Below, one piece after another: positions 1-20,715 of a DNA stretch of 22,080 bases. A program made the translations under genes and the position numbers. This stretch comes from a virus: positions 1-22,080 of the IMG/VR virus record IMGVR_UViG_3300048837_002351; one strand, written 5' to 3'. Within the stretch, counting starts at the first letter, position 1. Each line of letters opens with the position of its first letter. Under the pieces are notes generated by a model. The model saw only the letters and a program-made list of their open reading frames with translations. It searched no databases and was not told the origin of the DNA.

Positions 1-2769
1 GTGACGGACGTTGAAGCCCTGTTCCAACCCGGCGAGCGCATCACCCACCACGAGTACGGCCAAGGCGTCGTGCTTGACCCGGCGCGTGACGGGTATTTGC
101 GCGCGTTCTTTGGCGTCGGCGAACGCCGGGTGCCGGTGGCATCGTTGCGGCGCGAACTCACGCGCACCGAACGCATCCTGCGCGCTGTGGATGGCGGCGC
201 GGAACGGTCGCGCAAGGCATGGTTGTCCTACGAGGCGCACGCGCTGCCGGTGATGGAAAGCGCCTCGGCGCTGACCTCGGCCAAGATCGACCTGTTGCCG
301 CATCAGGTGGTGCTGACGCACCGCATCGCCACCGCCTCACCCCGGCGCTATCTGATCGCCGACGAGGTGGGCTTGGGCAAGACCATCGAAGCCGCGCTGA
401 TCCTGCGCGAGTTGGCCAGCCGGGGCGAATTGACCCGCGCCTTGATGGTGGTGCCTGCGGGCCTCGTGAACAACTGGCATCGGGAATTGAACGAGGTGTT
501 CAATCTCGACTTCGAGGTGTTCGGCTCCGAAGGCGACATCACCGACCGCAAGACCAATGCCTTCGCCAAGCACGACCGGCTGATCGCCAGCATCGACACC
601 CTGAAGCGCCCGGCGCGCATCAAGCGCCTGCTGGACGCGCCGCGCTGGGATTTAGTGGTGTTCGACGAAGCGCATCACCTGACCGCCTACCGCACCGGCG
701 GCAAGGTGCGCAAAACCGAAAATTACAAGCTGGCCGAAGCGCTGAAAGATCATTCGCGTGATCTCGTGCTGCTGTCGGCCACGCCGCACCAGGGCAATCA
801 CTTCCAGTTCTGGATGCTGGCGCAACTGCTGAACCCGACGCTGTTCCGCAGCCCCGAAGAAATGCTGGAAGAACGGCACCGGCTCAACACGGTGATGTTC
901 CGCCGCACCAAGGCCGACGCCTGCCAGCCGGATGGCTCGCCGCTGTTTGCACGGCGCTGGGTTCATACCGAGTCCTTCGTGATGAACCAGACCGAACGGC
1001 TGTTTTACGAGAAGCTGCGCGAGTACCTGGAGGACGGTTTCGACCTTGCGCGCCGCCAAGGCAACCAGGGGCGTGCGCTGGGCTTCCTGATGGCGATCTT
1101 CCAGAAGATCGCAGCGTCGAGCTTTGCCGCCGTGCGCCGCACGCTCAAGCGCCGCCTGCTGATGCTGACGCTGCACGAGGCGTTCCTGCGCGACAAGGAA
1201 CTGGACATCGAAGGCCGCGAGCGCCTGACCGAGGAAGCGCGCGAGCTGATCCACGAGGAATTTGGCCTGCCCCGCGACAGCGTCGGGCGCAGTGAAGTGG
1301 ATCGTGTGCTGGCCGATCTGAAGTACCGGCTGGTGAAGAAGCTGGACGAAGAGGCGCTGGAGATGGCCTCCGACCCTTACGCCAGCGAGTATTCGGCCAC
1401 GCACGCGGAAGAAGCCGCGTCGGCGGTGGTGAACCTGCATCTTCCCGAGGAACGCCTGCGTATTGGCGACCTGTTGCGCCTGTTCCCGGCGGAGCGCGAA
1501 ACCAAGATGCAGAAGCTGCTCGATGGCTTGGGCACGCTGTGGCGGCAGAACCCCAACGAGAAGATCGTGATCTTCGCCACCTACCTCGGCACGGTGGACA
1601 TGATCGCCCGCGAGATCGAGCAGACCTTCCCCGGCCAGGGCGTTACCGTGCTGCGCGGTGGTGACCACGGCGCGAAGGTGGCGGCGGAGCGGCGCTTTCG
1701 CCAGAAGGATGGCCCGCGCGTGCTGGTCTGCACGGCGGCTGGACGCGAAGGCATCAACCTGCAATTCGCTCGCGTCTTGTTCAATTTCGACCTGCCGTGG
1801 AACCCGATGGACATGGAGCAGCGCATCGGGCGCATCCATCGCTACGGTCAGCGCGACACCGCGCAGGTTTACAACCTTGTGCTGTCGGACACCATTGAGG
1901 GCCGCATCTTCCTGCTGTTGGATGAAAAGCTCACCGAAATCGCCCGCACGGTCGGCAAGGTGGATGACCAGGGCAACGTGGCCGAAGACCTGCGCGCACA
2001 GATTCTTGGGCAGTTGTCGGAACGGTTGAACTACGACCGGCTGTATCAGGAAGCGCTGTCCGACCCGGAATTGAAGCGCACGCAGGTGGAGCTGGAGGCG
2101 GCGCTGTCGAATTCCCGCGAGGCGCGGCAGGTGGTGTTCGACCTGTTCCAAGACCTCGACGGCTTCAGTCTCGATGACTACAAGCCCTTCTCGGATGTGT
2201 CATCCAGTCTGGATCGACTGGTGCGCTTCCTCTCGGCGGCAGTGGCAGATCGCCAGCAGAAGCTGGTCAAGGTGGACGATGCAACCTACGACCTCGTCAC
2301 CGTCGAAGGCACGCGCCGCGCCCGTTTCACCCTGAGCCGCGAAGCCGCGACGAATCAGGACGACCTGCAATTGATGGGCTTGGATCACCCTTTGGTGCAA
2401 GAGGAACTGGGCCGCTGGCGCAGCGTGCCGCCGGAGGAAGTCGGCATCGCCGTGTCCGGCGACGTGGACGAACCGGTGCTGCTGTCGCTGTGGATGGTCG
2501 AGACATCGGCTGGCAAGGGCGAACGCCGCGTGGTGGTGCAGCCCATCGCAGTCAAGCAAGACGGCACGCGCGTTCCGGCGGTCGAGCGCCTGTGCGAGAA
2601 ATTCCTGCAAGCACCGCCCGCCACACCGCTGTTCCGACCCGAGCAGCGGAACGACCTGTTCACCCACGCCGTTGAGCCGACCCTGCAGCGGGAACTGAAG
2701 CACAAGGGAGCCGCGAATGGCGATGGCAGCTATTCGGCGGAGCTGATTGGGTATGTTGAGATTTTGTAA
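1..2769 (+). CDS. SNF2-family DEAD/DEAH helicase, RapA/HepA-like
   Basis: A 922-residue ATP-dependent nucleic-acid translocase. The first RecA-like lobe has Walker A DEVGLGKT at residues 121-128, DEAH at 222-225 and LSATP near 259. The second lobe has TAAGREGINLQ near 578 and QRIGRIHRYGQ at 607-617, the SNF2 motif VI. The N-terminal stretch HHEYGQGVV (residues 16-24) resembles the small beta domain found ahead of the motor in RapA-type proteins. About 300 residues follow the motor and carry no motif I recognise. The GTG start lies on the first base of the window, so an upstream start cannot be excluded. All motor motifs look intact. Proteins of this family act in RNA polymerase recycling and also in phage-defence loci such as DISARM and other island systems. 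The SDH protease downstream makes an island role plausible, but this is inference. Confidence 0.9.
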   Translation: MTDVEALFQPGERITHHEYGQGVVLDPARDGYLRAFFGVGERRVPVASLRRELTRTERILRAVDGGAERSRKAWLSYEAHALPVMESASALTSAKIDLLPHQVVLTHRIATASPRRYLIADEVGLGKTIEAALILRELASRGELTRALMVVPAGLVNNWHRELNEVFNLDFEVFGSEGDITDRKTNAFAKHDRLIASIDTLKRPARIKRLLDAPRWDLVVFDEAHHLTAYRTGGKVRKTENYKLAEALKDHSRDLVLLSATPHQGNHFQFWMLAQLLNPTLFRSPEEMLEERHRLNTVMFRRTKADACQPDGSPLFARRWVHTESFVMNQTERLFYEKLREYLEDGFDLARRQGNQGRALGFLMAIFQKIAASSFAAVRRTLKRRLLMLTLHEAFLRDKELDIEGRERLTEEARELIHEEFGLPRDSVGRSEVDRVLADLKYRLVKKLDEEALEMASDPYASEYSATHAEEAASAVVNLHLPEERLRIGDLLRLFPAERETKMQKLLDGLGTLWRQNPNEKIVIFATYLGTVDMIAREIEQTFPGQGVTVLRGGDHGAKVAAERRFRQKDGPRVLVCTAAGREGINLQFARVLFNFDLPWNPMDMEQRIGRIHRYGQRDTAQVYNLVLSDTIEGRIFLLLDEKLTEIARTVGKVDDQGNVAEDLRAQILGQLSERLNYDRLYQEALSDPELKRTQVELEAALSNSREARQVVFDLFQDLDGFSLDDYKPFSDVSSSLDRLVRFLSAAVADRQQKLVKVDDATYDLVTVEGTRRARFTLSREAATNQDDLQLMGLDHPLVQEELGRWRSVPPEEVGIAVSGDVDEPVLLSLWMVETSAGKGERRVVVQPIAVKQDGTRVPAVERLCEKFLQAPPATPLFRPEQRNDLFTHAVEPTLQRELKHKGAANGDGSYSAELIGYVEIL

Positions 2770-2878: not shown

Positions 2879-3886
2879 GTGTCGAGCTATAAGTCCAGAA
2901 AAGCAACACTAAAAGCCATTGCCGAATGCAGAGACTCTGCGGTTATATCTTACGTAACCGGGGATAGACGACAGCTGGAAACGCAAATCTCTCCCGAGAT
3001 CATTGATCTATTTGTTGAGCACTTAGATGAAATCGGCCCAACAAAAAAGATATCGCTACTTCTTCATACGAATGGAGGAGATACGGCTGCTGCTTGGCGT
3101 CTTGTAAATTTGCTTCATACATTCTGCGATGAGCTTGAGGTAATTATTACCGCAAAGGCCTTAAGCGCCGGAACATTGATCTCGCTCGGGGCAAACAAAA
3201 TTGTCATGACGAAGCAAGCGGCTCTCGGCCCGATCGACCCAAGCATTAATCACCCTCTCAATCCGTTGATACCCAATGCGCCTCACGTCAAGGCCCCGGT
3301 GAGTGTGGAGGCGATCAGAGGGTATTTGGATGCAGCGACGGAACTTGGCATCAAGGATGCGTCCAGCCTGACTCAAATTCTTGTTGACCTATCAAATAAG
3401 GTGCATCCTCTCGTACTTGGGCAGATATTCAGATCTCGGGAGCAAATTAGATTTCTGGCCAAGAAGCTCCTGAAGCGCCAAGTTGAAGACGAACAAAAGA
3501 CCAAAGAAATCATCGATTTTCTTTGCGCTGAGTCCGGCAGCCATGATTACACTATCAATCGAAGAGAGGCTCGCGATCTTGGTCTTAATATTGAAAACCC
3601 GTCTGACGAGCTTTACGGCCTATTGAGGAAGCTGCATCTCAGCTATGTTGATGAGCTCAAGCTGCTGGAACCATACGATCCATACAGTCTGTTGGGCGCA
3701 AACCAGACAACTGACTATGCACTTCCGCGAGCGACCATCGAAAGCGTCAAGACCGGAAGTCATAAGTTTCTGTCGGAAGGTACATTGACAAAAACTGCCA
3801 CCCAGCAAGTCGGGCCAGCAGGGCCTTTCATGCAAGACATGATCAATGACAATCGAAAATTCGAAGGATGGAGAAAGACATCATGA
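2879..3886 (+). CDS. SDH-family ClpP/SppA-fold serine protease
   Basis: A 335-residue cytosolic protein of the serine dehydrogenase proteinase (SDH) family, part of the ClpP/crotonase superfamily. HTNGGDTAAAW (residues 63-73) matches the oxyanion-type GG strand. ALSAGTLISLGA (95-105) carries the probable nucleophile Ser97. ALGPIDPSI follows at about 115-123, as in SppA and Clp proteases. No signal peptide or membrane segment is evident, unlike SppA. The start is GTG, with AAGGA about nine bases upstream. The reading frame is intact. Base composition is markedly more A+T-rich than the helicase before it and the prophage after it (28 of 60 G+C in 2881-2940), which suggests horizontal acquisition. 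Its stop overlaps the next small gene. The substrate is unknown. Confidence 0.85.
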   Translation: MSSYKSRKATLKAIAECRDSAVISYVTGDRRQLETQISPEIIDLFVEHLDEIGPTKKISLLLHTNGGDTAAAWRLVNLLHTFCDELEVIITAKALSAGTLISLGANKIVMTKQAALGPIDPSINHPLNPLIPNAPHVKAPVSVEAIRGYLDAATELGIKDASSLTQILVDLSNKVHPLVLGQIFRSREQIRFLAKKLLKRQVEDEQKTKEIIDFLCAESGSHDYTINRREARDLGLNIENPSDELYGLLRKLHLSYVDELKLLEPYDPYSLLGANQTTDYALPRATIESVKTGSHKFLSEGTLTKTATQQVGPAGPFMQDMINDNRKFEGWRKTS

Positions 3887-4334: not shown

Positions 4335-4832
4335 CTATTTGGCTGTCACCGTCATGTCTTGTGCCCACGCTTGCAGCGCCCTCAACTGCTCGGCGTTCTC
4401 GTGGCAGGTCTGATAGTTGGTGGCAACGGTTCCGGCGACGGCAGAGAGCGCAATGCCTGCGGCGGCCGCATCAGCATCTCGGGCGGGTTCGGGCAGATCA
4501 CCGGCGGCGGCAGCGTCGTGCAGGCGCACAAAGCCACGGTTGATAGTGCAAGCAGCATCGGTTTGAATGGGCACATAGACGGGAACCTCCTTGATGATGG
4601 TGTCGCCCTTCTCGCGGACGACGCGGACGCGGTCGATGTACTCGGTGACGACCTTGACGGTAGCCTGCGCCTGCCGCTCTCGAACGGCGGCAGCTTGCAG
4701 GGTTTGTTGCTGGACGGCGGCGTCCCACTGGGCCTGAACGTGGCCCGCGCCCTTGATCCAGCCGAACCCGATCAAGGCGACGGCAAGCAGGACGAGGGGC
4801 AGCCAGAGGTACGGCCACGGGATCAGGCTCAT
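4335..4832 (-). CDS. Rz: Rz-like inner-membrane spanin (i-spanin)
   Basis: A 165-residue type II membrane protein that, with Rz1, bridges the inner and outer membranes and disrupts the outer membrane in the last step of lysis. Residues about 5-26 (PWPYLWLPLVLLAVALIGF) form an N-terminal transmembrane segment. The periplasmic part is rich in Gln, Ala, Val and Arg (QAQWDAAVQQQTLQAAAVRE), consistent with the coiled coil of i-spanins. The start ATG at 4832 overlaps the endolysin stop by four bases (ATGA), which favours it over the longer upstream frame. It is the last gene of the lysis cassette. A second, out-of-frame lipoprotein gene lies entirely inside it, strongly supporting the Rz assignment. 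Length is normal for the family. Confidence 0.85.
   Translation of the reverse strand: MSLIPWPYLWLPLVLLAVALIGFGWIKGAGHVQAQWDAAVQQQTLQAAAVRERQAQATVKVVTEYIDRVRVVREKGDTIIKEVPVYVPIQTDAACTINRGFVRLHDAAAAGDLPEPARDADAAAAGIALSAVAGTVATNYQTCHENAEQLRALQAWAQDMTVTAK
4382..4576 (-). CDS. Rz1: Rz1-like outer-membrane lipoprotein spanin nested in Rz
   Basis: A 64-residue reading frame in the +1 frame relative to Rz and fully inside it. The N-terminus MCPFKPMLLALSTVALCAC has a short basic region, a hydrophobic stretch and a lipobox LCAC ending at Cys19. The predicted mature lipoprotein is 46 residues with 15 prolines (TTLPPPVICPNPP at its start), the classic Rz1 composition. An internal Met7 is an alternative start giving a more usual signal peptide. 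Rz1 would be sorted to the outer leaflet and bind Rz through its C-terminus. Nested Rz1 genes are known from lambda and many other phages, and annotation often misses them. Evidence is from sequence pattern only. Confidence 0.85.
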   Translation of the reverse strand: MCPFKPMLLALSTVALCACTTLPPPVICPNPPEMLMRPPQALRSLPSPEPLPPTIRPATRTPSS

Positions 4833-5338
4833 GGCGTTTCCCCGAGGCACTGGCGGTACTCGGCCTGCCGCCGCGTTACCAACCCGCCGCACAAGCGCGC
4901 ATTGGCAGGCAGCGCGCAGTCCTTGCCCAGGAAGAATCGCCAGCGCAGCAACTCGGAACACGCCCCGGCGTAGTCCTCGGCGTTGAGCTTTCGCACCAGC
5001 GTGGACTGGCAGAACGCGCGGCTGCCGACGTTGTAGGAGAAACTGACCAGCGCGTCGTACTCGTGCTGGGCCAGCGGCACGGTCACGCAGCTTTTCAGGG
5101 CACCCTCGAACTTCTGCACATCCGTGAGCGCCCGCGCCAGCGCTTTCGGCGGCGTGGTGGTGTCGCCCAGCTTCACGTCGGTGGTGGTGCCGAAGCCGAT
5201 GGTCGGCACATCACCCTTGATCGGAATCACCGCGCGGTCGGTATAGCCCTCGTGCAGCACGATGCCGACCAGCGCGGCGGCGGACAGCGTCAGCGCGGCC
5301 ACGGCCTTACGCGATGTTGGCGTGGGTGGCCGGGTCAT
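4829..5338 (-). CDS. GH24 lysozyme endolysin, probable SAR type
   Basis: A 169-residue muramidase of the T4/P21 lysozyme family that cleaves peptidoglycan glycan strands. The Glu-Asp-Thr site appears as Glu30 in LHEGY, then Asp43 and Thr46 in GDVPTIGFGTT. The Glu-Asp spacing is a few residues longer than in T4 lysozyme, which I take as a subfamily loop. Residues about 11-28 (KAVAALTLSAAALVGIVL) form a weakly hydrophobic, Ala/Ser/Gly-rich segment directly before Glu30, as in signal-arrest-release endolysins such as P21 R. Such enzymes reach the membrane by Sec and are released when the membrane is depolarised. LVSFSYNVGS lies in the middle, as in the family. The start at 5338 overlaps the holin stop by four bases. 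Confidence 0.88.
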   Translation of the reverse strand: MTRPPTPTSRKAVAALTLSAAALVGIVLHEGYTDRAVIPIKGDVPTIGFGTTTDVKLGDTTTPPKALARALTDVQKFEGALKSCVTVPLAQHEYDALVSFSYNVGSRAFCQSTLVRKLNAEDYAGACSELLRWRFFLGKDCALPANARLCGGLVTRRQAEYRQCLGETP

Positions 5339-10685: not shown

Positions 10686-13600
10686 TCAAGGACGATCCAC
10701 GTCGCCGCGCACCAGCAAGGTGAAGGCGTCGTTGATGACGGTTTCCGGGCCTTGTTGGATGGTGCGCACCACCCACACCGGGAACAGGCTGCCGGTGGTG
10801 TTGAAGCGCAGCACGTTGCCGGTGGCCCAGCCCGATCCCCAGCCAATGGCGGCGAGCGTGAAGTACGGTTTGCCGGTGGCCGGGTTGATCGGCGCGATGT
10901 CGCTGCCCGTGGTGCCAGTGGCGATCACGCCGACGTGCTCGCCGATGACGTTGAACGAGGTGGCGTTGGTGAACTGGATCGCCCAGCGTTCGGTGATCGC
11001 CCCGGCGTTCGTCACCACGATGGGGGCGAGCACGTCGTTGTAGGTGGCGGTGGCCGCGCTGCCGGTGATGGCATCGAGGAATGTGCCGTTCCACGTGGTC
11101 TGGTCGAACAGGTTGGAGACGTAGGCGCGCAAGTCGCCCGACACCAACGCCGAGGAGATGTGCGCGCCGATGGGATAGTCGTGGGTGATCTGGCGCGTGA
11201 AGGCCAGCCGCCCGGAGATCTGCACATCCGACACCTGCGCCATGTCCTCGATGCGGTGCTCGACGGTGAGCGGCTGCACGAGGCCCGTGACCACGCCGAA
11301 GGTGACGATGCCTGCTTCGAGATCGGCGCTGTAGTCGGCGGTGACGACCGCGCCGTTGCCGTCCAGCACGCGCACCCGCGACAGGCGCTGGCGGCCGCAG
11401 TCCACGACCTGCCCGCTGGTGACGGCGAGCGGCCCCACGGTGGCGGTGTGGCCGATAACGGCGAAGTCGCCCGCGCGGAAGATCGGCACACGTCCATCTT
11501 GCGGCAACCGCACCGGGTCGAGGCCGATGATGTCGGCATCCAGCGGCAGGTAGGAATAGGCGACGGCGTTGTACTTGATGGTGTCGGCGAACACCGGCAC
11601 TGGCTTGAAGATTTTCGCCACGCCGTCGAGGGTGACCACGGCATTCGGGTCGTACCAGCTCTGTCCTTCATTGCCAGCCGCCACCACCCACGCGCCGAAG
11701 CGCACGCGCACCACGCCGGTTTCGTAGTCGATGGAGCCGAGCACGTCGGTGCCGGTGATGTCGCCGTTGTTGTTGGCGCTGACGTTGATCGTGCCGCCGG
11801 TCAGCCGCGTGGCGAGGATTTGCAGGCTGGACGGGCGCACCGGCGAGGCCGGGACGCGGAAGGTCACCTCATCGACCGGCGAGCCGTCCAGCGTGGTGAG
11901 CAGCGAGCGCAGCGCCACCGCGTTGGCGGCGGCAGGCACCCACGCCGTGATGCTGGCCGCGCCGTTGGCGTAGTTGATGCCGCCTGCCAGCGTCGCCGCG
12001 CCCGTCACCGGGTTCAGGTCGTAGTACAGGCTGCCCAGCCGGTCGAAATAGGTCTTGCCGCCCAGTGTGAAACAGATGCTGCCGGGCACGATGTTCTCGG
12101 CAAAGCTCGGCGTGAGGTCAATGGCCAGAGCGCCCGCCGTGAGGCTGTCGTTCGTGGCGTTGGACGTTCCCGCCGCGCGATAGCGCACTTTCACCAGACC
12201 GCTTTCATCCACCGGCATCGACGCGCCTGCCGTGATGTATTCCCAATGGGTGAACAGGTTGCGGTACACCGGCACAGTTGCGTTGTTGACCCGCGTCCAG
12301 CCGATCTGCGTGACGCTGTAGCGCGCCACCGGAATGCGCACTGTGGTGTCGGGTGCAAAGTGGACGACGCCGGTGCTGTAGTTCACCGTCCCGAAGGCCG
12401 TGCCTTGCGGATCGCGCAGCACGCCCAACCCGTCATCCTTGACGATCTTGATCGGGTCGATCTGGCGGATCAGTTGCAGCTCGGCGGGCGTGGTCGAGAT
12501 GTACTCGTACAGGTCGATCAGCAGGTTCCACTCCAGCTCGACTGTTCCCGGAATCAGGCCGTCGAAATCCACCTCCACGTCGATGCTGCCGTCGCCGTTG
12601 CGCAGCGGCGCGTGGAATTCCTCCTCGTTGGGCGGCCCCCACGTATAGGCGACGCTGTAGGTCTGGCCGCCCGCAGGCAGCGTGGTCGGCGTGATCTGGA
12701 TCAGGCCGGTCTGGTAGTTGATGGTGCCGGTGGCGTTGCCGCTGATCACGCCTTTGCCGTTGTCGGTGGCGTTGCGCGCCGTGCCGTCGTTCCAGGTGAT
12801 GGACACCGACCCCGGCGTGACGCCTGCGTTGGTGAGTTGCAGGGCCACTGACGGCGGCGCGATGGTGCTGGATGCGCGGTTGAAGTAGTTGGCCTTGCCG
12901 CCCCACGCATAGACGATCTCACTGCCCACGTCGGGCAGCGCGCCCAGCGTCACGGCCACCGTGCCGGTGGCGTAGCTCACGGTGCCGACGCCGTACTCCG
13001 GGCTGACGCCCTTGAGCACGCCCGCGCCGTTGTCGCGCAGGTCGTACCACTTGCCCTGCGCGCGGTAGCTCACTTGCAGGGTGCCCGGCGATGGGCTGGG
13101 CACGATGGTCAGGATGTAGTTGTACGAGCGGCTCTCGATGTCCACCCGCACGCCCGCCGTGTCGGCCACGCGGATCGGCGCGGCGGCAGGCCGGAAGCTG
13201 ATGGTCTTGGTGCCCGAATAAGTCGGCGCGCTGGAGGCCAACATGATCTGGCCGCGCACGTAGTTGATGGTGCCGACCACGGTCGCGCCCGACATCAGGT
13301 CGCCGCCGTTGTCGGTGAGCGTCGCGCCGCTGACGCTGATCGACAGCGTCCCAGGCTGGATGGCATTGCCGACCGAGAGCACGGTCGAGGAATTGAACGC
13401 CACCGCCGAGGTATAGGAAACCGTGCCGTTGTCCGATTCGATCAGGGTTTCCGAGGTACCACCCGCCGTCAGGTCGAGCAGCGGCGTTTCGGTCTGCGCC
13501 GAGGGCACCAGTTGCGTGAACACGCTGGTGACACTGGCGGCCACATCGCCGATGGCGACTGGCTGGGTGGTCTTGACCACGCCGCAATACTTGGCGGCAT

Positions 13601-14288
13601 CGGCCACCACGGTGTCGCGGGTCTTGGTCTTGCCAGTGGCCATCGTGAATAACCGATCCGGCGGCGAGCCTGCGAAGTCGTAGCGCAGCGCGTCCGACAG
13701 ATCGCAGGTGACGACCACCGCTTGGTAGTCCTGAATGCTGCTGCCCGAGCCGTAGCTGAAGGTACGGGTTTCCGACTCGATGCGGGTGATGCGGATGTAC
13801 TGCGCATACTCATTGGCCAGCCCTTCGTTCATCACGAGAAACAGGGTCTTGCCGATGGTCGGCAGCTCTGCGCCAACCCGCTGAAACAACTGGATGCTGC
13901 GCTGGCCCGCGATGTGGTTTTCCAGCAGATAACCGTTCCACATCGACCCCTTGTTGAGATAGGCCTCGATGCGGTCGCGCGCCTGCGTGCGGCGGTCGAA
14001 CACCTGCTCGGTGGAGAAGATGGTGACGGCCACGCGCGGGTCGCCGGGCGGATCGGAGACGACGACGTTGCCGCCGAGGTAGGTGTCGGTGGTGTCGGTC
14101 TGGATGCTGGCGAACACCTTGCGCAGGTTCACGCGGCCGCCCGCGCGATCCAGCTCCGAGATGTCGTTGAACAGCGAGTTGCTCGCGCCATCGACGATGA
14201 CGTTGGCGGTGGGCGCGCCGCCGCCTTCGGCGACGTCGTCCATCACCTGACTGGCGACCAGCTTCACGTCGCCTGCAAGAATGGGCAT
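10686..14288 (-). CDS. Large repeat-containing tail-tip protein, 1200 aa
   Basis: The largest tail-tip protein here, probably taking the place of lambda gpJ-type proteins. The N-terminal 240 residues (MPILAGDVKLVASQVMDD, NLFNDISELDRAGGRVNLRK, STEQVFDRRTQARDRIEAYL) form a conserved-looking block known to me from proteobacterial prophage tails. From about residue 310 to 865 at least six modules follow, each with a PG(T/S)-type strand, often a DNGxGVLxG loop, and a core G(T/S/G)(I/V)(N/S/D)YxxGxxxx at residues 339, 435, 521, 633, 769 and 851. Spacing is 82-136 residues. The C-terminus is also beta-rich. No enzyme motif is visible. The gap after the preceding gene is 16 bases. Confidence 0.7.
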   Translation of the reverse strand: MPILAGDVKLVASQVMDDVAEGGGAPTANVIVDGASNSLFNDISELDRAGGRVNLRKVFASIQTDTTDTYLGGNVVVSDPPGDPRVAVTIFSTEQVFDRRTQARDRIEAYLNKGSMWNGYLLENHIAGQRSIQLFQRVGAELPTIGKTLFLVMNEGLANEYAQYIRITRIESETRTFSYGSGSSIQDYQAVVVTCDLSDALRYDFAGSPPDRLFTMATGKTKTRDTVVADAAKYCGVVKTTQPVAIGDVAASVTSVFTQLVPSAQTETPLLDLTAGGTSETLIESDNGTVSYTSAVAFNSSTVLSVGNAIQPGTLSISVSGATLTDNGGDLMSGATVVGTINYVRGQIMLASSAPTYSGTKTISFRPAAAPIRVADTAGVRVDIESRSYNYILTIVPSPSPGTLQVSYRAQGKWYDLRDNGAGVLKGVSPEYGVGTVSYATGTVAVTLGALPDVGSEIVYAWGGKANYFNRASSTIAPPSVALQLTNAGVTPGSVSITWNDGTARNATDNGKGVISGNATGTINYQTGLIQITPTTLPAGGQTYSVAYTWGPPNEEEFHAPLRNGDGSIDVEVDFDGLIPGTVELEWNLLIDLYEYISTTPAELQLIRQIDPIKIVKDDGLGVLRDPQGTAFGTVNYSTGVVHFAPDTTVRIPVARYSVTQIGWTRVNNATVPVYRNLFTHWEYITAGASMPVDESGLVKVRYRAAGTSNATNDSLTAGALAIDLTPSFAENIVPGSICFTLGGKTYFDRLGSLYYDLNPVTGAATLAGGINYANGAASITAWVPAAANAVALRSLLTTLDGSPVDEVTFRVPASPVRPSSLQILATRLTGGTINVSANNNGDITGTDVLGSIDYETGVVRVRFGAWVVAAGNEGQSWYDPNAVVTLDGVAKIFKPVPVFADTIKYNAVAYSYLPLDADIIGLDPVRLPQDGRVPIFRAGDFAVIGHTATVGPLAVTSGQVVDCGRQRLSRVRVLDGNGAVVTADYSADLEAGIVTFGVVTGLVQPLTVEHRIEDMAQVSDVQISGRLAFTRQITHDYPIGAHISSALVSGDLRAYVSNLFDQTTWNGTFLDAITGSAATATYNDVLAPIVVTNAGAITERWAIQFTNATSFNVIGEHVGVIATGTTGSDIAPINPATGKPYFTLAAIGWGSGWATGNVLRFNTTGSLFPVWVVRTIQQGPETVINDAFTLLVRGDVDRP

Positions 14289-14723: not shown

Positions 14724-17700
14724 TCAGGTAGTGCGGGCGCGCGCCGCGTCCAGCAGTTGCAGCAGGCGCGCTTCGTCGCGGCCATCGACGGTGGCGGTGA
14801 CCTGCTGGCCGCCCGCAGCCAGTTCGACGCGCACGGTGCGCATGGGCGTGCTGGCCTCGTTCAATGCCGGACGCGGCACGTTCGCGCCGATGGGTTGCAC
14901 CAAGCCGCCGCTGGCGAAGCCCTGCACGCTGGCGAGCGTGTGGCCTGCCAGTGCCTGCGCGGGCGCGGACAGGTTGTTGATGGCCTCGAAGAAGCCCGCG
15001 CCCAGCCGCGCGACGGCGCTGCGGTTGACCACGAACTCGCCCGGCGTGAGCATCGCGGGCACGGTGTCGGACTTGGCCAGACCGCCGCGCGCGAGGAACT
15101 GGCCGTCCAGGCTTTCCATGTAGTCGATCAGCTCGCGCTCGAGGTCTTTGCCCCAGATCAACGGCTGCGCCATCGCCTGCCGCCACGTCTGCTTGATGCG
15201 CTGGAGGTTCTGGTTCTCGTTGCCGGTGAGCGTCTTGCGGTCGATGAACTCATCCAGCGTGCGCCGATCCTGCTGCGCCTGCTGGCCGTAGTTGCGCATC
15301 GTGTCGGACTTCATGTTCAGGCTGACCGCCGCGCCGTACTTGTACTGCAGCCAGCTGGTGTACTCGTTCATCCCCTGCAGGCCGAGGTCGATCATCTTCA
15401 GTGCCTCGACGGCCTCCCGATTGCGCTTGGGCGGATCGCCGCCACCAACCTGCCCACCGCGCGCGAAGTGCGCCACACCCCGAGCGAGGTTCGCCAGACG
15501 GCCCGCGCCGTACTTGCGCACCGCCGCCTTGCGGATCACGAAGGCCCCGGCGTCGAGCGTGCGCGGCACGGTGTCGTGGTGGCCGGAGCCGGGCACGGTG
15601 CCGCCGCCCATCCGGGGAAAGGCCGGAGCCACTGCGCCGCCGTCGGCAAAGTGCCGCACGCCGCCACCCCCAGCGCCGACCAGCCCCCCGGTGGCATTGG
15701 TTTCCACCTTGGTGACGTAGATCGTGTGCGTGCTCGTGGTGTGTATGCCGTTCAGGCTCATCACCTCGGCGCGCGCCGCATCGGCGTTGTGCTGGATGGC
15801 GTGGTGCGATTCGGTCTGGATGCGATCCAGCGCCTTGATCATCCCGTCGACGTTGGTGATCGCGGCCTGCGCTTTTTCGGTGACCACCTTCAACTCGAAC
15901 TGCGCGTTCTGGTCGGCGTAGGCCTTGAGCTTGTCCAGTGCTTCCTTCGCCTTGGACACATCGGCATCGACCGGCAGCGTCTTGCCTTCCTTGAGCAGCG
16001 CCTCGTATTCCTTGAGCTTCTTCTCCGCTTCCTGCAGGTCGGCCTGAATCTGGAGCAGGTATTCCTTCTCGGCCAGTGCCTTGTCCAGATCGGTGAGAGC
16101 CTTGTCGAAGCGTGTGGTGTCGGCATCGAGCGTGAGCTTCAGGCCGTCCTTGAGCTTGGCGGTGATGTCGTCGATCTGGCGCGTGGTCTCAATCAGCGTG
16201 CGCTGAATCTCATCGCGTGCGGTGATCGCCGAGCGCGCCGCCGTCTGGTGCGCCTTCGCTTCGGCATCCAGCGTCTGGTTGAGGATTTCCTCGGACTGGC
16301 GGATGCGGTCGATGGCGTCACGCACGCCCTGTTTGCCCTGTGCCGCCTGCGTGTCGGCGTCCCGGGCCTTTTGCGCCAGTTCAGCCCGCAACTGATCGGC
16401 CTGCCGCATCAGATCGGTGGCCTGCTGGTACTCCTGCCGACGGTAGGCCTCGCGCGACTGCGCCTCCAACTGCGTGGCCTGCGACACCGCCTGTTCGGAC
16501 TGCTTGCGCGCTTCTTCGCCGCGCTTGGCTTCGTTGGTCTGGCTGGTGGCCACCTGCGCGGCCATGTCCATCGCTTTCTGCGCGAGCTGGCGGGCCTGTT
16601 CCAGTTCGCCATTGGCCAGCGCCCGCCGTGCCTGCTCTTGCATCTCGGCGATCTGGCGCTTGCGATCCTCGGTGGCCTCGTACTCCGTCATGCCCTGGCG
16701 GCGGATGTCGCGGATGCGGTCCTCCGTGGACATCGACAACTGGCGCTTGGCCTCCTCGATGCGCTGCACTTCGGCCAGATGCCGGTTGGCCTCGGCGTTC
16801 AGTGCATCGATGTGCTGACGGTACTCGGCCAGTGCCTGCGTGAGCGTCTGGCGTTTGGTGGCCAGAATGTCGTTCTCGACCCGCTGCACGTTGGCGCGGC
16901 GTTCCTCTTCGGTCTGGCCTTGCCGTGCGGCGGCGTCCTTGCGCGCCTGCGTTTCTTGATCGATCAGGCCCAGCGTTTCGGTGGTGGCCTGACGGCGCAG
17001 CGTCGCCTGCTGCGTCAGCGCCTCGGTGAGCAGTTGCGTGGACTTGGTGATCTTGGCGGTTTCGGACTGCTGCGTGCGCTCCAGTTCCGCCTTCTCCTGG
17101 TCGTAGCGCGCCTTCACCGCCGTGATCTGCGTTTGCAGATTGGCCTCGACGATGGCGGTGAAGCCCTTGTAGGCCTCGGCCATCTTGGCGGTGGCGTCGT
17201 TGACCACGCCTTGGGCCTTGCCGATGGCCTGTTCGACCTCGCCCAGCCGGGATTTGAGCTTTTGCAATGCGGCGTGAACGGCCTCGATGCCGCGTCCGAC
17301 CGCTTCCTGCGTACCCTGGCGCACGGCCTCTAAGCGCTTGGCGATTTCCTCGGCGGCGGTCGCTGCGGTGTCCATCGCGCCCTTGGCGGCGTTCGCGCCC
17401 TCCGTGGCGTCCGCGTACATCTCGGCGAAGATGCGATTCATCTCCGTCAGGCGTTCGTTGTGGCGCTGGGTGGCCTCGGCAATGGTGTCGGACGTGAAGA
17501 TGGCGGCGAACACCTCCCACTGGAAGCGCAGGTGCTCGATGCCCGTCATCAGCACCTTCACCATGAAGATGCCCGCCTTGCGGACGATCTCGAATTTCTC
17601 GGACAGCCACGTCCCGATCTCCCAGCCGATGATGGCCGCGCCGAGCACGCCGAAGGCCACGCGCAGCTTGCCGACCGTGGCGATGGCGTTCGAGACGGAC

Positions 17701-18734
17701 AGGTTGGCCGTGGCCCATGCTGCTGCCGTGGTGCTGGCTGCCGTCACCGCCGCCGCGCCCGCCGTCTGCCACGCGATGATCAGCGCCGGAATCAGGCGGT
17801 AGACCAGCACCGCGAGGCCGACTTCGGCGATGCGCTGGAGCCACTTCATCACGGTGTCGAGGTTTTCTGACAGCCACGTCAGCGCCTCGGCGAGCTTCTT
17901 GGTGAAGCCAGTGGATTCGTCGAGGCGGCTAATCCACTGGCCGAAGGCGTTGGACAGGCGGGTGAAGGCCTGACCGACGGTCATCGGCAGTTGCGCGTAC
18001 TCGGCGGCCAGTTTGTCCTTCTGGCTCATCAGGGCATTGACCACCACGTCGGCGGTCAGCCGTCCTTCCTCGGCGAGCTTGCGCAGCCGCCCGATAGGGA
18101 CGTTCAGGCCGTCGGCGAGCGCCTTGGCCAGACGCGGGCTGTTCTCGACGACGGAGTTGAATTCCTCGCCGCGCAGCACGCCCGACGACAGGGCCTGCCC
18201 GAACTGCAGCAGCGCCGATTGCGCCTCGGTGGCCGATGCGCCGGAGATGCGCAGTGCCTGCGAGATGCTCTCGGTGATGGTCAGCGCATCCTCCTGCTCG
18301 CCGCCCAGCATCCGCACCGCCTGCTGGAGCTTGCCGTAGAGGGTGGCGGTTTCCTGAATCGGCACGCCGATGCGCTGGGCAATGGCGAACAGCTCCTTCT
18401 GGGCCACCGCGTACTCGCGGCTGCCTGCGGTGGCGAGCTTCAGGCGCGCGGACATCATGTTCCAGGCGTCGGCGATCTGGACGATCTCCTGCACCTTGCC
18501 GCTGGCCCAGTTGATGGTCAGAAAGGCCAGCAACTGCGTCTTGGCCTTGGCGACCTGATCGCCAAAGGCGTTCATCCCGGCCTTGACCTCGGCCACCCCG
18601 GCGGCGGCCTTGTCGCCTGCGGTCTTGGCGCTGGAGCCGAAGCCGCCGAGGCTGCGCTCGGCAGACGTGATGGCGCGCTTGAGCCCCTCGTCGGCCCCTT
18701 CGAGCGCGACGAGGATGGAAATGCGATTCGCCAT
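14724..18734 (-). CDS. Tape measure protein
   Basis: A 1336-residue protein that sets tail length and fills the tail tube. Residues about 75-266 match the tape-measure domain of lambdoid-type phages (ATLYGKLQQAVRMLGG, then GQALSSGVLRGEEFNSVVEN). Hydrophobic stretches at about 290-375 (VGLAVLVYRLIPALIIAW, FGVLGAAIIGWEIGTWL) could insert into the host membrane during DNA entry. Residues about 430-1000 are a long Ala/Gln/Glu/Arg-rich coiled coil (ARRALANGELEQARQLAQK). The C-terminus has two copies of DTVP...(G)xFV at Asp1054 and Asp1223. The start at 18734 (MANRIS) lies two bases from the preceding stop. A tail near 200 nm is expected at the usual 0.15 nm per residue. Confidence 0.93.
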   Translation of the reverse strand: MANRISILVALEGADEGLKRAITSAERSLGGFGSSAKTAGDKAAAGVAEVKAGMNAFGDQVAKAKTQLLAFLTINWASGKVQEIVQIADAWNMMSARLKLATAGSREYAVAQKELFAIAQRIGVPIQETATLYGKLQQAVRMLGGEQEDALTITESISQALRISGASATEAQSALLQFGQALSSGVLRGEEFNSVVENSPRLAKALADGLNVPIGRLRKLAEEGRLTADVVVNALMSQKDKLAAEYAQLPMTVGQAFTRLSNAFGQWISRLDESTGFTKKLAEALTWLSENLDTVMKWLQRIAEVGLAVLVYRLIPALIIAWQTAGAAAVTAASTTAAAWATANLSVSNAIATVGKLRVAFGVLGAAIIGWEIGTWLSEKFEIVRKAGIFMVKVLMTGIEHLRFQWEVFAAIFTSDTIAEATQRHNERLTEMNRIFAEMYADATEGANAAKGAMDTAATAAEEIAKRLEAVRQGTQEAVGRGIEAVHAALQKLKSRLGEVEQAIGKAQGVVNDATAKMAEAYKGFTAIVEANLQTQITAVKARYDQEKAELERTQQSETAKITKSTQLLTEALTQQATLRRQATTETLGLIDQETQARKDAAARQGQTEEERRANVQRVENDILATKRQTLTQALAEYRQHIDALNAEANRHLAEVQRIEEAKRQLSMSTEDRIRDIRRQGMTEYEATEDRKRQIAEMQEQARRALANGELEQARQLAQKAMDMAAQVATSQTNEAKRGEEARKQSEQAVSQATQLEAQSREAYRRQEYQQATDLMRQADQLRAELAQKARDADTQAAQGKQGVRDAIDRIRQSEEILNQTLDAEAKAHQTAARSAITARDEIQRTLIETTRQIDDITAKLKDGLKLTLDADTTRFDKALTDLDKALAEKEYLLQIQADLQEAEKKLKEYEALLKEGKTLPVDADVSKAKEALDKLKAYADQNAQFELKVVTEKAQAAITNVDGMIKALDRIQTESHHAIQHNADAARAEVMSLNGIHTTSTHTIYVTKVETNATGGLVGAGGGGVRHFADGGAVAPAFPRMGGGTVPGSGHHDTVPRTLDAGAFVIRKAAVRKYGAGRLANLARGVAHFARGGQVGGGDPPKRNREAVEALKMIDLGLQGMNEYTSWLQYKYGAAVSLNMKSDTMRNYGQQAQQDRRTLDEFIDRKTLTGNENQNLQRIKQTWRQAMAQPLIWGKDLERELIDYMESLDGQFLARGGLAKSDTVPAMLTPGEFVVNRSAVARLGAGFFEAINNLSAPAQALAGHTLASVQGFASGGLVQPIGANVPRPALNEASTPMRTVRVELAAGGQQVTATVDGRDEARLLQLLDAARARTT

Positions 18735-18736
18735 CT

Positions 18737-19381
18737 TTAGTCCACCAGCCGCAACTGCTTCTCGATGGTGGCGGACAGGCGTGGGATGCGACCGGCGACG
18801 ATGCGCTCCACTTGAAGACGCCGTTTGAGCTGCACGCGCGGCACCAGCACGGCAATCGGCACGTCCGCGCCGCGCTTCAGTTTCTTGATGCCTTCGGCCT
18901 TGCGGTAGCGCCGCTTGAAGCCCGACAGTGGCCGGTCGTGTTCCTTGATGTTTTCGGCCATCAGCACGATGTTCCCCTTGGCGTTCTTGATGAAATAGGC
19001 ATTGCCGCCGCGCATCAGTTCGGCGATCTGCGCCTTGAAGCGTTTGCGGCCCACGCGCCCGTGCAGCGGAATCAGCATCCGCCCAGCGATCACGCCGCCA
19101 CGCTCGTGGATGCCAGACCACGGAATGCGCGAGCCGACGTAGAGCGCAGGCAGCCGGTTTTTGTCCTTGTCGAGCACCTTGGCGGTGAAGCCCTTGACGA
19201 AGGACTTCTTCACCACCGCCATCTGGCCCGTGACGTGGCGGCGCACGTTCTGCTTCAGTTCCGCCGCCTCGCGGGCAATGCCGCGCGCGACCGCCTTCTT
19301 GACCTTGTGCCGGAACTCGCCGCCCCAGCGGCGCAATTGCGCCTGCGCGGCCTTGCTGTCAATGCGAACGGAGATGCGCAT
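18737..19381 (-). CDS. Minor tail protein, gpZ/DUF6441-like
   Basis: A 214-residue basic protein. The first 60 residues (MRISVRIDSKAAQAQLRRW) form a helical Lys/Arg-rich region, followed by VGSRIPWSGIHERGGVI and a Lys/Arg-rich C-terminal half (KRRYRKAEGIKKLKRG). Size, basicity and position resemble gpZ-type or DUF6441 minor tail proteins, which act in tail completion; this is judged from memory and is not certain. The start at 19381 (MRISVRID) is preferred over the upstream ATG at 19429 because it makes a 23-base overlap with the frameshift extension of the chaperone instead of a larger one. Confidence 0.6.
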   Translation of the reverse strand: MRISVRIDSKAAQAQLRRWGGEFRHKVKKAVARGIAREAAELKQNVRRHVTGQMAVVKKSFVKGFTAKVLDKDKNRLPALYVGSRIPWSGIHERGGVIAGRMLIPLHGRVGRKRFKAQIAELMRGGNAYFIKNAKGNIVLMAENIKEHDRPLSGFKRRYRKAEGIKKLKRGADVPIAVLVPRVQLKRRLQVERIVAGRIPRLSATIEKQLRLVD

Positions 19382-19951
19382 GGTCTTGGAGCCTGTCGAG
19401 GGTCTGGTCGAGATGGCGGGCATCGCCACGCGCGCCGATGGCGATCAAGGAGAGCAGCCGTGCGTCGCGGGCGGCGTCCTCGCGCGCCGTGGCGGCCACA
19501 AAGCCGCGCATCTGCGCCAAGGTGTAGTCGAGGATGTCCGGCAGCCGGTGGCCGTGGGCGATCAGATGCTGGACGGTGTCGAACCAGTGGCCGCCGCCGC
19601 ATTCGCCTGCGCGAACAGGCCGTCCAGCTTGGGCATCACCGTCCGGGTAAAAAAATCGGCGTTGACCTCGATCACCTTCGCCGCCAGCAGAATCGCCTCG
19701 TCGGCGGCCAGGTCATCGACCCACGCGCGCGGCTTGCCGATGGCAATGGCCACCGCCGCCAGCAGGTCGTCGCCGCGCTCGCCGAACAGCGCCAGCCAGT
19801 CGATGCCGTCGCCGCCGATCTGCTGCATCACCGGCGTGATGGCGCGCAGGAAGGCGGGCATCTGCCCGACCTTCAGCGGCTTCACGCTGACGGTTTCACC
19901 CGCGAGCGTGATCTCGAAGGCTTGCGGAACGAGCTTGTCCAGATCGCTCAT
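19359..19951 (-). CDS. Tail assembly chaperone frameshift product, gpGT-like
   Basis: A predicted -1 frameshift at the T TTT TTT heptamer (19655-19649) replaces the last 28 residues of the short chaperone with a 96-codon extension and a stop at 19359-19361. The fusion is 197 residues. The extension includes YPDGDAQAG, then FDTVQHLIAHGHRLPDIL and DYTLAQMRGFVAATAREDAA, an amphipathic helical sequence with normal codon use, like gpT domains. It fills 19382-19561, which otherwise would carry no gene, and overlaps the next gene by 23 bases. This is the conserved arrangement of long-tailed phages, where the G to GT ratio controls assembly. Slippage itself is not shown by the sequence. Confidence 0.85.
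19562..19951 (-). CDS. Tail assembly chaperone, gpG-like
   Basis: A 129-residue protein that in lambda-like phages coats the tape measure during tail assembly. The start chosen is ATG at 19951 (MSDLDKL) because GGGAG sits at good spacing; GTG 19966 and ATG 19963 are alternatives in frame that overlap the major tail gene. The sequence PLKVGQMPAFLRAITPVMQQ and the acidic WLALFGERGDDLL resemble short chaperones. At 19655-19649 a T TTT TTT heptamer lies exactly in the phase needed for -1 slippage, after Asp in the GAT TTT TTT codons. The zero-frame stop is at 19562-19564. The frameshift product is listed separately. Confidence 0.85.
   Translation of the reverse strand: MSDLDKLVPQAFEITLAGETVSVKPLKVGQMPAFLRAITPVMQQIGGDGIDWLALFGERGDDLLAAVAIAIGKPRAWVDDLAADEAILLAAKVIEVNADFFTRTVMPKLDGLFAQANAAAATGSTPSSI
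19649..19655 (-). promoter_or_regulatory. Slippery heptamer T TTT TTT
   Basis: Seven T in the minus-strand message, in phase as GAT TTT TTT ACC, fit the X XXY YYZ rule for -1 frameshifting. Both tRNAs can re-pair fully after the slip. I found no convincing downstream stem or pseudoknot by eye. It joins the short and long tail chaperone frames. Confidence 0.85.
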
Positions 19952-19962
19952 GGTCGCTCCCA

Positions 19963-20715
19963 TCACAGTTGCACGATGCGGCCGAACTGGCCGAGCAGCG
20001 CGTCATAGGGTTTGGTGGTGTCGGCCAGCAGCGAGCCTTCCAGCTCGAACTTGTTGTATTCGTCCGAGATGAAGGAGATTTCCTTCAGCGGATCGAAGGC
20101 CACGCGGTACAGCTCGACCAGTACCTTGGCGTTGCCCTGCGCGGTGTTAATGCCTTCCAGCCGCAGGTAACGCTCCGGCACCGACTGCGTGAAGATGCCG
20201 ATCTCGGTGGTGATGCCGTAGCTGTAGGCCGCACGGAACGGCGCGGTGAGGCCGGTGGTATCCAGAAACTGGAGGGCACCGAAGTCGGTGTCCACGGTGT
20301 AGTTGGTGCCTGCGACAAGCGTCGCGGGCGTTCCCGCCGAATCGGTGACCACGACCGCCGACACCTTGGGGTGGGCGAGGAAGTAGCGGTCGCCGACCAC
20401 GGGCGTCGCGCCCCCGATGGGTTCTGCTGTGACCGTGCCGGTGCTGCCGGTGACGTGGTTGCCGTACAGGGCCAGGGCGAGGTTTTCCTTGGTGAATTCC
20501 TCGATGGTGAGGTTCACCGTGGCCGATTTCTGCTTGACCATCCGGTGATCCAGCGAACGCTGGCCGGTCTGGCTCTCGTAGTGCTCCAGCACGTCGGTCT
20601 TGAGCGAGAGCTTCAACTCGGCGACGTTGCCGGGCGAGCGCACTTCGATGGGCAGGCCGTCGATGTCGCGCTTGCCGAGGAAGACGCGCCCCTGAAAACT
20701 GGCGTAGGTGCTCAT
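19963..20715 (-). CDS. Major tail (tube) protein
   Basis: A 250-residue protein forming the tail tube. It begins MSTYASFQGRVFLGKRDIDG and contains LKTDVLEHYESQTGQRSL, TVNLTIEEFTKENLALALYG, then a middle part with VGDRYFLAHPKVSAVVVTD and TLVAGTNYTVDTDFGALQF. The end is SDEYNKFELEGSLLADTT. The middle insertion with its beta-rich pattern suggests an inserted Ig-like domain. The gene precedes the tail chaperone, the normal order. The start at 20715 overlaps the preceding small gene by four bases. Composition and codon use match neighbours. Confidence 0.85.
   Translation of the reverse strand: MSTYASFQGRVFLGKRDIDGLPIEVRSPGNVAELKLSLKTDVLEHYESQTGQRSLDHRMVKQKSATVNLTIEEFTKENLALALYGNHVTGSTGTVTAEPIGGATPVVGDRYFLAHPKVSAVVVTDSAGTPATLVAGTNYTVDTDFGALQFLDTTGLTAPFRAAYSYGITTEIGIFTQSVPERYLRLEGINTAQGNAKVLVELYRVAFDPLKEISFISDEYNKFELEGSLLADTTKPYDALLGQFGRIVQL

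Follow-up and report, generated by a model that had tools for sequence, protein, structure and literature searches.

The tail assembly chaperones G and GT, the second of which extends the first through a -1 frameshift, represent a well-known kind of recoded phage gene (Xu, Hendrix and Duda 2004, cited in PMC5009743). In lambda, a low-copy -1 fusion adds a C-terminal domain to G; G binds the tape measure protein, and GT recruits the major tail protein (PMC5009743). Frameshifting has been measured at 6-7% in an HK97-like cluster (PMC3711429), and in Mu-like phages of Pseudomonas aeruginosa the sequence T TTT TTC was reported in 2014 at the corresponding place, in core ORFs 35/36 (PMC4378225). 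Joined frameshift coding sequences have been deposited for the phages MP38 (gpG/gpGT) and Summit (‘tape measure chaperone frameshift product’).

The window considered here, the whole 22,080-nt stretch of viral DNA that was analysed, resembles several of these systems. MP38 gpG/gpGT, together with the D3112-like P. aeruginosa Mu-like group, shares with it the G family phrog_1442, a slip site of the form NNT TTT TTY following N-x-x-FF, a T region in the -1 frame with a related motif, and a position between the major tail protein and the tape measure. Identity between MP38 and the window is, however, only about 23% in G and 19% in T, the MP38 heptamer is T_TTT_TTC rather than T_TTT_TTT, and in MP38 no DUF6441 gene separates T from the next gene, that of a tail component. 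Stenotrophomonas phage Summit likewise has a phrog_1442 G, the T_TTT_TTT heptamer and the T domain motif LIRHGHRLEDISEYT, but it is a large (96 kb) Delepquintavirus in which T immediately precedes the tape measure. A Summit-like system has been left unannotated in DLP_3. Both DLP_3 and VW-6B carry an in-phase T7 heptamer and an open T domain, with no joined GT annotation. The statement in the first-pass annotation that gene callers miss the long form is true of these two phages and does not extend to MP38 and Summit, which carry the joined coding sequence.

The same annotation had drawn a parallel with lambda. The order of major tail protein, G, GT and tape-measure region is indeed kept, whereas the gene for a DUF6441 protein intervenes before the tape measure, unlike in lambda; an intervening gene is also present in HK97, SPP1 and KL1 (PMC3483164). 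Neither G nor T of the window matches the lambda G and T families in Pfam. The sequences of G and T are not conserved across phages, and homology to those of lambda is not required of the G/GT kind; the lambda slippery heptamer, G_GGA_AAG, also differs from that of the window. The HK97-type gp13 proteins (PDB 2OB9 and 3FGX) have the same presumed role as the G of the window, but no significant structural match to it was found.

Gene neighbourhood

The late genes lie on the minus strand, in an operon that encodes, in order, a fragment of a major head protein, a head-tail attachment-like protein, a tail terminator (phrog_4204), a small DUF7210 protein, the major tail protein, G/T, the DUF6441 protein, the tape measure, tail proteins and lysis genes. 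Directly upstream of G/GT is the major tail protein, which has an Ig-like domain (19963..20715, minus strand; phrog_807, E=2.2e-81). Downstream, a single gene, that of the DUF6441 protein (18737..19381, minus strand; PF20039, E=9.6e-81), occupies the interval before the tape measure protein (14724..18734, minus strand; TMP_3, E=9.7e-66; phrog_8010, 1257 bits). The DUF6441 protein also has a weak HK97-gp10-like match (PF04883, E=0.2), and its ATG, at 19381, gives a 23-nt overlap with the end of T.

Elsewhere in the window, a 1200-aa protein (10686-14288, minus strand), with no Pfam match and a full-length match to phrog_6128 (function unknown), has a position that suggests a tail-tip or baseplate-like component. 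The spanin pair (4335-4898 and 4382-4576, minus strand) has the outer-membrane lipoprotein gene, with an LCAC lipobox-like sequence, nested in another frame within the inner-membrane spanin gene, an arrangement common among phages. A short match in the spanin region was the only close similarity to the window in the phage collection. On the strand opposite to the late genes are an SNF2-type helicase resembling the BrxHI/DrmD defence helicases (1-2769, plus strand) and, following it, an SDH/ClpP-like serine protease (2879-3886, plus strand). As no relatives of the protease were found in IMG/VR, this pair may belong to flanking host DNA or be cargo at the edge of the prophage.

The G gene and its -1 frame

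G, a short tail assembly chaperone of 129 aa (19562..19951, minus strand), reads from an ATG at 19951 to a TGA at 19564-19562, with an alternative in-frame start possible at a GTG (19966). Codons D99, F100 and F101 contain the slippery heptamer T_TTT_TTT (19649..19655, minus strand), in the context GTC AAC GCC GAT TTT TTT ACC CGG and in the X_XXY_YYZ phase; its location and its phase for a -1 slip are exactly as the first-pass annotation had given them. It is the sole T7/A7 run in the 22 kb window, and among the 4094 codon positions examined, an in-phase TTTTTT occurs at this site alone.

Beyond the slip site, G continues for 28 further codons before its TGA, while the -1 frame provides an extension of 96 codons (19359..19649, minus strand) that ends at a TGA at 19361-19359. 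The deduced product of slippage at the G gene would be a 197-aa fusion, GT (19359..19951, minus strand), consisting of G residues 1-101 and 96 residues of the -1 frame. The first ~20 codons of the T region are a variable linker, overlapping the G tail (19562..19648, minus strand; this overlap contains GGACGGTG). They are followed by the conserved T domain proper (WFDTVQHLIAHGH...DYTLAQ...), of 76 aa (19362..19589, minus strand).

Family membership and predicted structure

Residues 1-128 of G match phrog_1442, annotated as ‘tail assembly chaperone’, with E=4.1e-33. The match to Pfam DUF6631 is partial and, at 21.1 bits, below the 27-bit cut-off; MP38 gpG matches the same family with E=3e-99. 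The T extension matches phrog_13355 (E=6.6e-23) and phrog_14432 (E=2e-6), both of ‘unknown function’. NCBIfam yielded nothing relevant, and sequence profiles of the PDB gave nothing for either G or T.

Searching the phage collection by tblastn with G, T and the DUF6441 protein returned no match at the limits set, whereas the G of a distant relative, used as query, recovered four phages, MP38, Summit, DLP_3 and VW-6B, for the most part with weak E-values. Kinship was then confirmed through phrog_1442 for the three that were scanned, MP38, Summit and VW-6B.

AlphaFold2 models G as a small beta hairpin with helices (pLDDT 77); for T it predicts three helices, with a mean pLDDT of 86 and a pTM of 0.48, and the T domain proper is accordingly predicted to be all-alpha. 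Against solved structures, the G model gave nothing significant (3FGX was matched at E = 5.2), and a fold of the HK97 gp13/YqbN family is accordingly no more than a possibility for G. The T model gave nothing significant in a fold search either. Among predicted viral tail assembly chaperones, G does have fold matches, the top one being a DLP_5 protein (5.8e-7). The DLP_5 locus was also found in the search for relatives, and is annotated as a tail assembly chaperone in NC_042082.

Conservation of the frame and the heptamer

That the shifted frame stays open for 96 codons had been offered in favour of a frameshift, and the observation is exact. As proof, however, openness was set aside, because in DNA this rich in GC it tells little: across the late genes of the minus strand, 3622 codons of the -1 frame include 18 stops, and an open 96-codon stretch is weak evidence because ~62% of such stretches would be open by chance. 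The same figure is what favours reading the locus as a chance open frame beside a homopolymer, or as one gene split by a sequencing error, and the weight of the argument falls on relatives.

A first set, comprising viral contigs and the window itself, contained 71 distinct G/T regions. It was gathered with six search peptides, one of which spans the slip site; every one of the 71 regions also carried another of the patterns. In all 71, T lies in the -1 frame and the heptamer is in phase, being T7 in 69 and T6C in two. Further loci came from a genome collection, searched with a G domain query that excluded the slip site, and from the viral collection, searched with T alone, bringing the total to 138 distinct loci. 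The related prophages and MAG contigs belong mainly to Burkholderiales, Rhodocyclaceae-type and Lysobacterales genomes. At 137 of the 138 loci T occupies the -1 frame, and the in-phase heptamers comprise 134 T7, two T6C and one T6A, the remaining locus having Ns at the site. The X_XXY_YYZ phase is constant, with no drift, and the 0-frame stop of G past the slip site is conserved.

The lone exception in frame, L099, has T6A, one T fewer, and no -1 fusion. L099 and L111, the locus with Ns at its slip site, are two prophages in one MAG (CP059256.1). An assembly or sequencing error at the homopolymer is probably responsible for the T6 of L099, and is the simplest reading of it because the second prophage of the same MAG has Ns at this very place.

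Conservation extends to 17 distant members, drawn from a class-wide phrog_1442 search and from annotated phages, those that were aligned being 18-50% identical to the window in G. The heptamer is in phase in 17/17, with the pattern NNT TTT TTN, and the T motif W...LI..GH...DI..YT..Q...F is retained.

The first-pass annotation had named two findings in relatives, loss of the heptamer or stops within the extension, as evidence that would weigh against it; on this point the survey was strongly favourable. A chance frame or a split gene is vanishingly improbable, the comparative data having already refuted it: the two-frame layout, the heptamer and protein-level selection recur at 137 distinct loci in many unrelated assemblies, together with the conserved 0-frame stop. 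Conservation, rather than openness, proves the feature, and this comparative evidence is decisive.

Codon choice at the slip site

Very few residues are close to invariant in the family; N97, F100 and F101 of G belong to them, and the choice of codon for these phenylalanines is highly skewed. At the slip site TTT is used 272 times and TTC twice, while at other Phe codons of the same genes the counts are 123 and 431 (22% TTT). The preceding Asp codon is GAT in 136 cases and GAC in none (136/137 loci), compared with 820 GAT and 1848 GAC for Asp elsewhere. Fisher tests return extreme values; given the relatedness of the loci, weight is put on the pattern rather than on the p-value. In the 17 distant members, the residue before FF is not fixed (D, R, S, T, H, N or G), yet its codon ends in T without exception, compared with 11% of the remaining codons in these members; TTT invariably follows, and the final codon is TTT, TTC or, in a single case, TTG. 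A codon ending in T followed by TTT is what tandem slippage would demand, and protein conservation alone would not be expected to yield it. A Shine-Dalgarno-like GAGGT is present upstream of the slip site; its conservation is explicable by the E-V-N residues encoded there, hence no claim is made for it.

These patterns also bear on transcriptional slippage, in which RNA polymerase would add one U on the T7 run and part of the mRNAs would encode GT in frame. The run is a homopolymer, inserting a single base would produce an identical fusion, and slippage of RNA polymerase on poly-T is known for longer runs (Tn with n > 8 is cited in PMC3711429). Seven Ts are short for such slippage, however, and in most of the 17 listed distant members the run is only T6, with C or G after it. 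The variable last position of the heptamer fits slippage of tandem tRNAs, and the lack of drift in the XXX_YYY phase among relatives argues further against the polymerase, leaving this explanation very unlikely.

The T extension as coding sequence

Past the G stop, diversity in the T frame is 0.18/0.12/0.40 at codon positions 1/2/3, similar to that of G (0.16/0.10/0.38). By this measure of purifying selection, the T extension is evolving as coding sequence. The overlap of G and T has no codon periodicity in either frame, as expected where dual coding occurs.

T might alternatively be a separate protein with its own internal start, made by coupled re-initiation near the G stop. In keeping with this, several PHROGs contain T-domain ORFs that are cut short at internal codons, and a CTG frequently overlaps the G stop or follows it. 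Yet the part of the T frame that leads from the slip site to the conserved WFDxVQxLIxxGH block has an ATG, GTG or TTG in 0/137 loci, and T is therefore most simply reached by frameshifting. Conservation of T begins upstream of the internal codons, and an internal start would leave unexplained the fixation of the heptamer at silent sites. A separately initiated T is accordingly extremely unlikely. The short T PHROGs, of 42-58 positions, match the C-terminal part of the T domain alone and resemble ORFs whose calls begin at internal start codons.

Candidate stimulatory structures

The 79 nt after the slip site fold with -36.9 kcal/mol (z = -1.71), marginally better than shuffled sequences. A conserved downstream hairpin was considered and rejected, as 60-nt folding energies near the slip are no lower than elsewhere in the gene. 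The strongly conserved GGACGGTG, after the slip site, might base-pair with CACCGTCC, which lies close to the G stop and the start of the T domain, in a candidate stem of 8 bp with a spacing of about 55-97 nt. This pairing is perfect, or departs from perfection by G-U pairs only, in most close relatives, whereas in divergent relatives changes in the arms produce mismatches with no covariation, and the stem was rejected as a supported element. It is conceivable, though unlikely, that a long-range GGACGGTG/CACCGTCC stem bridges the G tail and determines the ratio of G to GT in this sub-clade.

Proposed mechanism

The site, its phase, the coding extension and the conservation of all three, as observed in the window and its relatives, are almost certainly best explained by programmed -1 ribosomal frameshifting in a G/GT-type chaperone gene carried by a long-tailed phage or prophage, with Betaproteobacteria and Xanthomonadales-type hosts. 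Gene order, the phrog_1442 match (4e-33) and the relatives all support the first-pass annotation in this interpretation.

Most ribosomes would stay in the 0 frame and produce the 129-aa G. A minority, whose P and A sites both hold tRNA-Phe on GAU UUU UUU, would slip back by one base, the two tRNAs moving together and re-pairing on UUU UUU; reading would then continue in the -1 frame to give the 197-aa GT, which would gain the alpha-helical T domain. We infer that such slippage occurs, and by analogy its efficiency may be a few percent. The lambda precedent suggests that G would coat the tape measure protein, and that the few copies of GT would recruit the major tail protein.

Conclusions

The analysis confirms a recoded gene of a sort that automatic callers frequently overlook or predict incompletely. 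Its additions to what was known are the breadth of the conservation test, across >130 relatives, and a proposed assignment of several families, in which DUF6631 would represent the G side and phrog_13355, phrog_14432, phrog_8022, phrog_10839 and phrog_18719 the T domain. For annotating the long form, a compact rule emerges: differing residues before FF, always with a codon ending in T, then TTT. Annotation aside, this is ordinary phage biology, and the window is a further member of the well-known G/GT frameshift class.
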